64,000 bases of DNA from Niameybacter massiliensis (lineage in GTDB: Bacteria > Bacillota > Clostridia > Lachnospirales > Cellulosilyticaceae). The position numbers and the translations under genes were made by a program. Below are positions 841-51,964 of the stretch, one piece after another (the first letter of the stretch is position 1; each line of letters opens with the position of its first letter). The stretch covers positions 1-64,000 of the forward strand of contig NZ_LN875030.1 in assembly GCF_001282685.1 (NCBI RefSeq). The letters run 5' to 3'. The notes under the pieces were generated by a model. The model worked only from the letters and a program-made list of their open reading frames with translations. It was not told the DNA's origin and made no database searches.

Positions 841-870
841 GAGAATGTAGATTCTACATTCTCTATTTTG
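841..870 (+). terminator. Terminator after the DUF503 gene
   Basis: A 10-bp stem GAGAATGTAG/CTACATTCTC with a 3-nt loop, followed by TATTTTG. It starts directly after the stop codon. Confidence 0.85.
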
Positions 871-894
871 ATTAATAGAATAAATATTTGGTTA

Positions 895-1210
895 AGTGTG
901 AGGGCATGTAGTTAAGCTTATTGTATTCCAACTTCTAGTCCTCAACTTTTAAGACAGGCTAAGTTCATTTCATCAAACTAACGGTCAAAGCTCAGAAAAG
1001 AAGTTCACTTTTCTTCAGACATTTCCCTAAAACCAGTTTGATTCCATTCGCTAAGCCTCTCTAAAAAGTCTGTGGAGGAAGTTTCTATACAACAACTTAC
1101 CTTACAGCCCATCACATCATAGCCCTTTCGGGAGAGAAATAGCAAAGCTACATGCCCCATTTTCTAAACATCCTTCATGTGAAGATGTCTAATCATTTCC
1201 GAGTTTAGAT
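895..1210 (+). ncRNA. Candidate large structured non-coding RNA (possibly raiA-like)
   Basis: This stretch has no open frame but contains nested complementary segments. GGGCATGTAG (902-911) pairs perfectly with CTACATGCCC (1148-1157), closing a ~255-nt domain. Inside it are ATCAAACT/AGTTTGAT near 972/1034 and a hairpin AGAAAAG/CTTTTCT near 994-1015. A second domain follows: TCTAAAC near 1163 pairs with GTTTAGA near 1203, enclosing a hairpin around ATCCTTC/GAAGATG. The rest of the gap to 1382 holds two small hairpins. Size and setting recall the clostridial raiA-type structured RNA, but I cannot confirm the family and no raiA gene is nearby. Strand is inferred from the flanking genes. Confidence 0.5.
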
Positions 1211-1382
1211 TAAAAGTACTATTAATTCTACAAAGCTTATCTTAATTAACCCAGTAGCAAAAGATATTGAGACATGCAACTGTTAGTTGTATTTATCTTA
1301 ATTTCAGATTCAACTGAAGGTTTATTGAATAGGGTATTCTGATTTGGTAAGCTTAAGACAAAGCTAACAGGGAGGAATACAA

Positions 1383-2285
1383 ATGAATATTAATAATGTA
1401 GGGAACTTTATTGCACAGCTTCGTAAGGAAGCTAATATGACACAGTCGGATGTAGCAGATGCACTTCATATTTCACACCAGGCAGTATCTAAATGGGAGA
1501 GGCTAGAATCTTTGCCGGATATTACAATTCTGCCAGAGCTTGCCAAACTATTTGATATTTCTATTGATGAATTATTGAATGGAAAGAAAAAGGCTTTAGA
1601 AGAAAAAGAATCTATTAATTTAGAAGAAGAGACTTTTATTAATGATTTAGCAACTCAAAAAGTTAAAGAGGCAAAAGAAATTTTAAAGACATTAGAAAAT
1701 AAAGCAGAGCTTTTAAAGGAAATAGCGCCTATTACAAAGCCAAAGGTATTAGATGAGATTATGGAAGAAGTAGAGATTGATTTAGATCAAATAGAGGAAT
1801 TTTTGCCGTTTTTAGGAGCTAATGTATTAGATAAAATTATTAATCAGGCGATAGTTTCTGGTAAAGTGGCTCGATTACAATCAGAAATCTATCCATTTCT
1901 AAACAATGAACATAAGAATCAGCTTATAGACCATTATATAAATCAGAAACAGGAATATGACTTAGATGATTTTTATCCTTTCTTAAATGGAGAGCATAGA
2001 GAAAAGCTCATTAATTATTTTTTTGATAGAAATAAAATAGATAATCTAGAAGATTTATATCCTTTCTTATCTAAAGAAGAAAAAGATTTGGTGATCGAAA
2101 GAATATGCCAAAATAGTTTTTATGAATATATAGAAGATATGATGCCTTTTATAAATGGCGAGCAAAAAGATAAAATAGTAGAAAAAGCCTTAAATGATAA
2201 AATTGATAAAAGTATATTGAGTGATTGGGCACCTTTTCTTAATCAAGAGCAACTAACAAGAATTATTTTAAAAAGTAATAAATGA
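1383..2285 (+). CDS. XRE-family transcriptional regulator with C-terminal helical repeats
   Basis: Residues about 7-60 form a Cro/C1-type helix-turn-helix, including TQSDVADALHISHQAVSKWE, the typical recognition segment of clostridial XRE regulators. After an acidic linker, residues about 130-300 hold five or six degenerate repeats of about 25-30 residues built around a PFLNxEHK core (for example YPFLNNEHKNQL, YPFLNGEHREKL, YPFLSKEEKDLV, MPFINGEQKDKI, APFLNQEQLTRI). This looks like a helical-repeat sensor or protein-binding tail; its ligand is unknown. The ATG follows GGGAGG. The gene has no obvious operon partner; the structured RNA at 895-1210 lies upstream on the same strand. Confidence 0.8.
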   Translation: MNINNVGNFIAQLRKEANMTQSDVADALHISHQAVSKWERLESLPDITILPELAKLFDISIDELLNGKKKALEEKESINLEEETFINDLATQKVKEAKEILKTLENKAELLKEIAPITKPKVLDEIMEEVEIDLDQIEEFLPFLGANVLDKIINQAIVSGKVARLQSEIYPFLNNEHKNQLIDHYINQKQEYDLDDFYPFLNGEHREKLINYFFDRNKIDNLEDLYPFLSKEEKDLVIERICQNSFYEYIEDMMPFINGEQKDKIVEKALNDKIDKSILSDWAPFLNQEQLTRIILKSNK

Positions 2286-3556: not shown

Positions 3557-3810
3557 ATGTATATTTGCCAATAGATGCACGTGTAAATGATTTTGGGATG
3601 ATTGTATTAATATAAAGATATAACGGCGCATTAATAAATAGTTTAATTATTTCATAATGAATTATATTGGTATTGATTAATTGTAAATATAGTATGTTTA
3701 AAATCACATGTAATACTATAGAGTCATTATTAGAGTGATATATTAGTGATAGTAAAATATTTAATTGTGTTTCCTATATTGTAACTTGGATGGTATATGA
3801 AAGTTAGTGG

Positions 3811-4300
3811 GTGCCGTTATTTAAAGTATATTAAAAGTAACAATAGAAGGTTACTATGCCTGCAGTTTTAGATAAAGCATCTTTAGTAGGGGATATGTTT
3901 AGGATAAAGTGACTATAGAAGTAAGTATTAGTATAGTTTATTGGTAATAACAAGTTATTAGTTGTAGTTATTTAAAGTATGTCAAAGGTAACAGTAGGAA
4001 ATTACTATGACTGTAATTTTAGGTAAAGTATTTTTAGTAAGATATATGTTTATGATAAAGTGACTATAGAAGTAAGTACTAGTATAGTGTATTGGTAATA
4101 ACAAGTTATTAGGTGTCACTATTTGGAGTATATTGAAGGTAACAATAGCAGAATACTATGTTTGTAGTGTTAGGTATAATATCTTTAGTTGAGATATATG
4201 TCTGTGATAAAGTAATTATAGAAGTGAGTACCGGTATAGCTTGTTAGTTACTATAGAGGTCACTATTTGAGGTAGAGTACTAGCAATAATAAGCCTGTTA
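3811..4300. repeat. Non-coding tandem repeat, ~150-bp unit, three copies plus a partial fourth
   Basis: Units start near 3811, 3961, 4112 and, shorter, 4258. Shared blocks appear in the same order at a spacing of about 150 bp: CTATTTGGAGTAT-like, AAGGTAACAATAG-like, a TACTATG block, GATATATGT-like, GATAAAGTGACTATAGAAGT and GGTAATAACAAGTTATTA. Copies are diverged but alignable with few indels. No frame stays open across a unit. The whole gap from 3557 to 4468 lacks a recognisable gene; 3557-3810 is AT-rich and may hold a more decayed copy (CATTATTAGAGTGATATATTAGT near 3724). Confidence 0.75.
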
Positions 4301-4468
4301 GTCGTCTCTTTTAACTTGAAATATATTTCATTATTATAATAAAACATTTTGTCTTAAAAATCAACAATTTATTATAAAAATATGTTAAATTAAATCTAAT
4401 TATAATGCTATGTGTAAAAAAGGCTACTATATATAAAAAAGTAAGATACAAAGAGAGGGGAAAGTAAG

Positions 4469-5224
4469 ATGACTAAAAATAAGCTACTAGAATTGTTTGA
4501 GAACCATAAAGGAGAGTACTTATCAGGTGAAGCTATTGCACAAAGTTTAGGATTATCTAGAACAGCTATATGGAAGAATATAAACTTACTTAGAGAAGAA
4601 GGATATGATATTGAATCTACTAAGAAAAAGGGGTATATCCTTAATGCTAACTCCGATATATTATCTAAAATGAAATTACAGCAATTTTTAGATAAAAGCT
4701 TTCCTATAGACCATGTAGAAATGCACAAAGTGGTAGATTCTACGAATAAGAGAGCACTTGCTTCATATGTGGCAAAAGAAAAAAATTGGATAGTAGTAGC
4801 AAGTGAGGAACAAGAAAAAGGAGAAGCTAAAGAAGAAGCAAGTTTTTACTCACCTCAAGGAAAAGGGGTTTATATGAGTGTAGCGATTGATTTGAATTCC
4901 CCTATGGATGCAATGGATACTATAATTAAACAAAATAGTGAAGCTGTTAGAGTGGTTATACGAGAAATTACTCAGGTAGACACAGAAATAGGTGAAGATA
5001 ATAACCTTTATTATAACAATAGAAAATTAAGTGGTATTATGACACAAATGTATATAGAAGCAGAGAGTAAGACTATTAAAAGCATGATTGTTGGTATTGG
5101 TATATATGTACACGGAGCAGATGAAAAGGCTATTGCTTTAACTGAAATTACTGGTGAATATTGTAATAGAAGTGAGCTTATTGCACGTGTTTTAAATAAG
5201 TTATATGCCTATTATGGAAGATAA
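4469..5224 (+). CDS. BirA-like transcriptional regulator with degenerate biotin-ligase domain
   Basis: Residues about 1-65 are the winged helix-turn-helix of BirA repressors (LSGEAIAQSLGLSRTAIWKNI). Residues about 75-251 match the ligase fold, keeping VDSTNKRA, FYSPQGKGVYMSVAI, RKLSGIMTQ and the MIVGIGI segment. The ATP/biotin loop GRGRxGRxW of active ligases is replaced by a KGEAKEE stretch, and the KWPND motif by an EDNNLYYNN stretch. At 251 residues it also ends near the point where the C-terminal SH3-like domain of ~320-residue BirA would begin. I infer a DNA-binding paralogue without ligation activity, possibly still sensing a small ligand. AGAGGGG precedes the ATG. Confidence 0.75.
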   Translation: MTKNKLLELFENHKGEYLSGEAIAQSLGLSRTAIWKNINLLREEGYDIESTKKKGYILNANSDILSKMKLQQFLDKSFPIDHVEMHKVVDSTNKRALASYVAKEKNWIVVASEEQEKGEAKEEASFYSPQGKGVYMSVAIDLNSPMDAMDTIIKQNSEAVRVVIREITQVDTEIGEDNNLYYNNRKLSGIMTQMYIEAESKTIKSMIVGIGIYVHGADEKAIALTEITGEYCNRSELIARVLNKLYAYYGR

Positions 5225-22752: not shown

Positions 22753-22792
22753 GAAACAAATATGAAAACTTTCATTATATAGGTAAAATAAC

Positions 22793-23022
22793 GTTGATGA
22801 GAGAAAAGCTTAAGATTTTGTTTTTAAGAGAGCTAGTGGATGGTGTGAACTAGTAAACAGACTTTAGTGTTCCGCTCTTTGAGTTGCTGGTGATGAGCCA
22901 GAAGGGAGTTGCCCTTTATAGCAATAAGAGGTCAGTTTATTTACTGATGAATGAAGGTGGCACCACGAGTATGCAATCGTCCTTTTATCTTTTTACGAGA
23001 TAAAAGGGCGTTTTTTATTTTA
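22793..23022 (+). promoter_or_regulatory. T-box riboswitch, serine specific (UCC specifier)
   Basis: The element begins with GTTGATGAGAGAAAAG, typical of T-box leaders. Stem I is closed by AAGAG/CTCTT, and the specifier loop before the 3' strand contains TCC (22871-22873), a serine codon. The T-box core AAGGTGGCACCACG lies at 22954-22967. The terminator stem CCTTTTATCT/AGATAAAAGG ends in a T-run near 23011. It senses uncharged tRNA-Ser and controls serS directly downstream. Confidence 0.93.
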
Positions 23023-51699: not shown

Positions 51700-51964
51700 C
51701 CGTGCTAGCCGGGGAAGTAGCGGTGCCCTGTACCTGCAACCCGCTGTAGCAGGGGTGATGCTCTAGCCGAGGCAGTATCTTGTAGGGTCTGCCCTTAGCA
51801 AGTGATGTTGATGATTAGGTCTTACGCAATAGGCACTCTTGAATCGTGTCAGGTCCGGAAGGAAGCAGCACTAAGGGAGCACGCTCTATGTGCCGTGAGA
51901 GTGCCTAGTCGGAGTTAACTACTAGGGTCACGCTTATGGGCTAATGTCGAAGCTGAGTGCACGG
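51700..51964 (+). ncRNA. ffs: SRP RNA, large Bacillus-type (scRNA)
   Basis: The ends pair (CCGTGC at 51700-51705 with GCACGG at 51959-51964). The conserved domain IV hairpin GTCAGGTCCGGAAGGAAGCA is centred near 51857, with the GGAA tetraloop and internal loop. The 5' part contains the Alu-like domain (GCTAGCCGGGG, CTAGCCGAGGCAG). About 265 nt, the size of large Firmicute SRP RNA. The mature 5' end may begin earlier, as the promoter predicts a start near 51673. Confidence 0.93.

Follow-up and report, generated by a model that had tools for sequence, protein, structure and literature searches.

The question raised by this locus is what kind of sequence fills the spacer between a DUF503-type gene and an XRE-type regulator gene near the start of the window, i.e. 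the whole 64,000-nt stretch of Niameybacter massiliensis DNA analysed here. The preliminary description considered the spacer a large structured non-coding RNA, closed by a perfect 10-bp stem, reminiscent of clostridial raiA RNA and placed beside an unusual neighbour, the XRE gene.

Fold of the spacer and its copies in the genome

The spacer (864–1382) is more structured than chance, as had been proposed: positions 895–1215 fold to −80.3 kcal/mol compared with −58.1 ± 4.1 kcal/mol for shuffled sequences (z −5.4), and 841–1382 has a z of −5.75. The letters of the proposed second stem domain are also present, TCTAAAC at 1163–1169 and GTTTAGA at 1203–1209. Concerning the 10-bp closing stem, both arms exist (GGGCATGTAG and its complement CTACATGCCC, Table 1), but 21% of dinucleotide-shuffled spacers contain one or more perfect 10-bp inverted pairs (mean 0.35), the minimum-energy and consensus folds pair 900–911 with approximately 1100–1120 and not with 1148–1157, and the stem is broken in other copies of the element described below, where it reads CTACATGACCC, CTACATGATCC and similar. 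The perfect pair is copy-specific and by itself weak evidence.

Searching the genome that contains the window (4.57 Mb, 11 contigs) yielded at least 23 copies of the element and two stubs, with 83–93% identity to the window query; an intact copy used as query adds about five diverged or rearranged relatives. The spacer is thus not a one-off: it belongs to a dispersed non-coding element present at about 25–30 loci in this genome, these numbers being lower bounds. Seventeen copies are complete (618–956 nt). Two pairs of copies at different loci show 99.3% and 98.2% identity from end to end and have therefore spread recently. No shared or conserved reading frame and no coding capacity are found among the copies, in agreement with the earlier observation that the spacer has no open frame. 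The order seen in the window is real and reflects one rod (a long imperfect hairpin) of this repetitive element, with the conserved motif on the opposite strand.

No other full match was found by BLAST in 392 genomes of the order, and the window element has no match in phage collections. An exact 19-mer of the left rod is absent from GTDB contigs and IMG/VR, collections from which this or a very near genome is possibly left out. In Rfam 15, which had been named as a check, the window element has no family at the gathering threshold and, up to E 10, no matches other than those expected by chance. For the intact copies and the tip loci of other species, the only families above gathering are tRNA, rRNA, T-box and Flavo-1, none of them within the element. 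Elsewhere in the window Rfam places a T-box leader at 22785–22987 (+, 106 bits) and the large SRP RNA at 51700–51964 of the window, and a sub-threshold similarity to caiA RNA (22 bits compared with the 55.5 required) at 1315–1385 (+), which runs into the XRE start codon and is probably due to chance.

Three further loci of this genome have particular arrangements. L120 (G000:C10:142000-151000) contains at ~3870–4630 a diverged copy whose left-rod end is found in two tandem versions, with compensatory changes at the rod base (GGGTGTGCTGG/CCCAGCATCCC). L124 (G000:C11:2962500-2970500) contains at ~3744–4189 a rearranged copy, the core module of which is inverted relative to the right rod. At L033/L117 (G000:C11 near 3.221 Mb) five clustered tRNA genes, beside an element copy, are tandemly duplicated with a period of ~482 bp.

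Anatomy of the element and its insertion sites

Complete copies start with AATAAATATTTGGTTAAGTGTGAGGG and end with CCCTCACTTAAACAAATATTTATT or a variant thereof, and the intact element is bounded by terminal inverted repeats (TIRs) of ~26 bp (AATAAATATTT...GTGAGGG). The left module is constant and is followed by a middle part that varies in length, a short conserved core and a right module of type A or B, the stems of A and B being unrelated. Intact copies fold into two rods and a stem joining the ends. The two rods are inverted, with the left motif on the minus strand and the right motif on the plus strand.

The features of the window copy are presented in Table 1. The terminator-like hairpin lies outside the element and marks its upstream border. 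The right rod and the right TIR are both lacking and only the left end is kept; the window copy is a 3′-truncated relic, the left half of one copy. Having lost its right half, it is presumably no longer able to move, and is probably inert. The XRE-type regulator that follows (1383–2285, +, 300 aa) apparently has ~25-residue repeats with YPFLN/S-type motifs in its C-terminal part.

Table 1. Features of the spacer and its upstream border, in positions of the window
Feature	Position	Strand	Basis
Terminator-like hairpin of the upstream DUF503-type gene (550–840)	841–863	+	GAGAATGTAGA..TCTACATTCTC, read directly and from the fold
Left TIR, AATAAATATTTGGTTAAGTGTGAGGG	879–904	+	Pattern match here and in 17 other copies; matching right ends in intact copies
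Left rod, long imperfect hairpin (231 nt)	892–1122	−	23-copy alignment, consensus fold, model match
5′ arm of the 10-bp stem	902–911 (3′ arm 1148–1157)	+	Copy-specific pairing
Rod part matched by covariance model R3	943–1066	−	59.5 bits, E 3e-10 (rough, as are all E-values of the R3 search)
Tip, TGTCTGA-(AGAAAAG..CTTTTCT hairpin)-GAGCT	989–1021	−	
Internal-loop motif GGTTTTAG, 5′ side	1027–1034	−	Partner AACGG at 980–984, CCGTT on minus
Internal-loop motif CTTAGCGAA, 5′ side	1047–1055	−	Partner at 959–967, TGAACTTAG on minus
Remnant of the variable middle module	1123–1279	+	Homology to intact copies stops at ~1279

The flanks differ in every copy and the neighbouring genes are unrelated. Based on genes called by a simple ORF rule, the 17 complete copies are flanked by 34 gene ends, of which 25 are 3′ ends and nine are 5′ ends. 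The gene setting of the copies in this genome (n = 25) is convergent in ten, tandem in eight and six, and divergent in one; in other species the corresponding numbers are 27, 16 and 17, and five. The copies are therefore found mostly just 3′ of stop codons and between convergent genes, and divergent spacers are avoided. Neither strand is preferred, in this genome or in other species. Five of the complete copies run into a stop codon, whose TAA is part of the AATAAATATTT end, and several copies adjoin a pre-existing terminator (in the window, the hairpin upstream of the element). Two copies have candidate target-site duplications of 5–6 bp (TTATAA, ACTAA), but across the copies no duplication beyond chance is seen (observed sum 25 vs 23.5 in shuffled pairs, p 0.41).

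Conserved rods within and beyond the order

An intact copy searched against the order gave two short matches in one genome (G016). These are the tips of long hairpins, and the letters of their stems are unrelated. A genome of the same genus (G002) contains several elements which are pairs of inverted rods, and the left rod of the window, read on the minus strand, has the same series of conserved loops when aligned to these: CTTAGYGAA/TGAACTTAG, GGTTTTAG/CGTT and TGTYTGA-hairpin-GAGTT, with helices of free sequence between them. The hairpin inside the tip is exchangeable (RCGNAGY, CCAGCGG, CTGAAAG, GGGAACC, GCATAGC or the long AGAAAAG..CTTTTCT of the window). The conserved tip TGTYTGARCGNAGYRAGTT is carried by the right rods of intact type-A copies; the window copy has the extended tip hairpin instead and no match to it within two mismatches. 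Model R1, with its short tip, misses the window rod because of this extension; its weak window matches at 24.3 and 10.3 kb look like terminators.

Covariance model R3 was derived solely from 11 rods of G002 and G016, i.e. without any sequence of this genome. Its sole match in the window is part of the left rod (Table 1). In the other copies of this genome it has 44 matches, left rods and right rods of both types lying on opposite strands. Covariation, another check that had been named, is weak within this genome alone (two-sided changes in four of 68 pairs) but strong between genera: when 23 rods from the three genomes are aligned, 97.1% of the cells are paired and 17 of the 23 pairs have two-sided changes. 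Two-sided cells number 152 compared with 48 in shuffles and at most 36 when the alignment is slid. Because the aligned rods are related to each other, the shuffle count cannot be read as a probability; more weight falls on the slid control and on the independent model.

Across the order, R3 reaches 11 of the 392 genomes. They belong to three genera of the same family (as many as nine scored matches each, among the matches listed) and, with weak matches, to three other families; in one genome of the latter (G193) the rods are again found as (−,+) pairs ~250 bp apart. The tip GCTGTYTGARCGNAGYRAGTTC is more widespread: it is present in at least 115 stretches of GTDB genomes from Clostridia, Bacteroidales, Flavobacteria, Variovorax and others, the named hosts including Variovorax, Flavobacterium, Prevotella, Parabacteroides, Lachnospiraceae, Desulfosarcina and Thermoclostridium. 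At 124 distinct sites, which were not picked for pairing, the stem adjoining the tip is paired at 4.46 of five positions compared with 1.98 with shuffled partners, and 85 different 5-bp stems are found. The closing pair of the RCGNAGY loop is G–C in 117 cases, A–T in six and G–T in one. A cross-phylum alignment of 77 tip rows, picked for at least three paired bases beside the tip, is 92.6% paired, with 305 two-sided cells compared with 95. One Lachnospiraceae genome contains 135 tips, compared with five for a reversed-pattern control, and among the matches listed all 14 pairs less than 500 bp apart are (−,+). In plasmid collections, a Variovorax plasmid contains an unannotated match to a Variovorax double-rod locus.

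Concerning genes which might mobilise the element, no gene-bearing relative with the same ends was found: end matches within three mismatches are non-coding copies or apparently due to chance. A candidate autonomous version in G012 and G193, with rods 1.8 kb and 4 kb apart, was rejected, as these are separate copies around ordinary genes. The only Y1_Tnp (PF01797) gene in this genome (G000:C10:578116-579009; L292 3117-4010) encodes 297 aa and lies between a peptidase-like and a ctp-protease-like gene. In the 8 kb around it there is no match to the tip or the element, and no RAYT flanked by repeats is found in this genome. A long Y1 protein (~300 aa) is also present in the relatives G002, G006, G008, G019 and G022, and Y1 genes are present as well in relatives where R3 finds no rods. 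In the open-access literature the tip letters have only apparently unrelated chance matches to primers. The rod family has nothing matching it in Rfam or in the open-access literature searched.

Nature of the element and comparison with known systems

The element is multi-copy, non-coding and bounded by TIRs, with two inverted rods that have conserved loops, a tip and compensatory helices; the same tip, often in the paired inverted layout, is found in other families and phyla. We lean towards regarding the spacer as a 3′-truncated, probably inert copy of a non-autonomous, REPIN-like, putatively mobile palindromic DNA element. An enzyme supplied in trans would recognise both rods as folded (single-stranded or extruded) DNA, reading one rod per element end, in the manner proposed for RAYTs, which would bind the two inverted REPs of a REPIN, and the element would thereby spread; surviving insertions would then lie mostly at gene 3′ ends, presumably because promoters are spared. 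With the inverted layout, one transcript presents only one rod in the right sense, and DNA is therefore favoured. A mobile DNA element of non-autonomous type agrees with the inverted layout, the absence of a strand preference, the TIRs, the recent near-identical copies and the fact that nothing is encoded. The RCGNAGY loop closed by G–C equals d(GCGNAGC), known as an extraordinarily stable DNA mini-hairpin, a description that occurs in the literature alongside GCGAAGC; this equivalence is suggestive of a function at the DNA level, though not proof of it. Against a mobile DNA element stand the lack of a reproducible target-site duplication, the lack of a relative that carries a gene and has the same ends, or of rods enclosing a gene, and the single Y1 transposase gene of this genome, which is not flanked by rods. 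Also, conserved internal loops between covarying helices are typical of functional RNA. The chief rival is that the rods, folded on either transcript, act as RNA at gene 3′ ends, in termination, protection of mRNA ends or protein binding via the loops, and that this function keeps the copies. The excess of 3′ ends around the complete copies (25 vs nine), similar elsewhere, and the strong fold and helix covariation around conserved loops speak for such a role; we nevertheless consider it unlikely, as a strand preference and an Rfam family are absent, several copies adjoin a terminator already present, the rods of an element lie on opposite strands and copies decay by truncation, as in the window.

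An ordinary MITE, moved via its terminal repeats by a DDE transposase and carrying the rods as passenger structure, would explain the ~26-bp TIRs, the non-coding multi-copy nature and the internal deletions. It would leave aside that neither a target-site duplication nor an autonomous partner with the same ends is found, and that what other species share is the rods and not the DNA letters of the ends; we regard it as quite improbable. As for a single large structured plus-strand RNA of the raiA type, the window resembles it in being a large folded clostridial intergenic region, with the z of −5.4 given above, yet we would give this almost no credence. Unlike raiA RNA, the element is a dispersed repeat with copies beside unrelated genes, has its motif on the other strand and has no Rfam match, and the 10-bp stem is copy-specific and frequent in shuffles; in the form in which it was stated, the idea is refuted. 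There is also no adjoining raiA gene, the next gene being the XRE regulator, which is not an unusual neighbour but merely adjoins one insertion, since each copy lies beside different genes. What stands of the preliminary description is that the spacer is structured beyond chance, and this structure is conserved; the single-copy RNA on the plus strand, with the 10-bp stem closing it, does not stand. What looks like a ‘novel structured RNA’ in a single spacer can thus prove to be half of a mobile palindrome.

Among known repeats, the family behind the window relic is REPIN-like in layout, but its rods are long and ornate and its tip is conserved across phyla. Like REPINs and REP doublets, it combines two inverted palindromic units into one dispersed, intergenic, non-coding unit (PMC3116915, PMC3733652, PMC8266576), and it shares with REPINs the compensatory changes in the hairpins and the many copies per genome. 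The two inverted palindromic units are present in the intact copies and in other species, not in the window copy. For REPINs and RAYTs the proposed mode is likewise an enzyme acting in trans that reads folded DNA ends (PMC3116915, PMC8266576). REP units are 20–40 bp long, one of their ends bears a GTAG or CGTC tag and their loops are of 2–20 nt (PMC3733652); the rods are far longer (231 nt in the window), have three conserved internal-loop motifs and are most strongly conserved at the tip, and no GTAG/CGTC tag is seen at their base. A RAYT gene flanked by repeats, as in REPINs, is not found in this genome.

The element resembles MITEs in being short and non-coding, with TIRs, many copies and internal-deletion variants. 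The family as a whole combines TIRs, lack of coding capacity and multiple copies, whereas the window copy has the left end only. Unlike in MITEs, no target-site duplication is shown and no autonomous partner is found, and what is conserved between species lies in the internal rod and not at the ends. BOX and other composite or palindromic repeats (ERIC/IRU, bcr, RUP) are modular, intergenic and strongly folding, and by description the rod element is like them; to our knowledge, they are each confined to one genus or family. The rod tip crosses phyla, and this sets the element apart from them, by description and not by sequence.

Small dispersed repeats in general are, as far as we know, usually restricted to a genus or family. 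A tip with free stems, found from Lachnospirales to Flavobacteria and Variovorax and commonly in inverted pairs, points to a common recognising factor. We tentatively suggest, at somewhat less than even confidence, an undescribed class that crosses phyla, with two inverted rods, the tip TGTYTGA-hairpin-GAGTT, a factor that moves or maintains the elements by reading the folded DNA (or RNA) and, in some genomes, more than 130 copies. The rod family can be searched for directly with the covariance models, the coordinates and the loop motifs, and the contrast between the 135-copy genome and relatives with none permits a search for a co-occurring protein.

Two loci of other species have particular arrangements of rods. 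In Flavobacterium sp. 14A (L235, 2303–5700) eleven rods with the conserved tip are spaced at 213 bp or a multiple thereof, all on one strand, i.e. as an expanded tandem array instead of inverted pairs. In Variovorax sp. dw_308 (L190, 1790–1840) a palindromic repeat, CCCTCTCCC..GGGTGAGGG, lies between two inverted rods; this 45-nt unit also matches DNA beside argF on an E. coli K-12 F′ plasmid.
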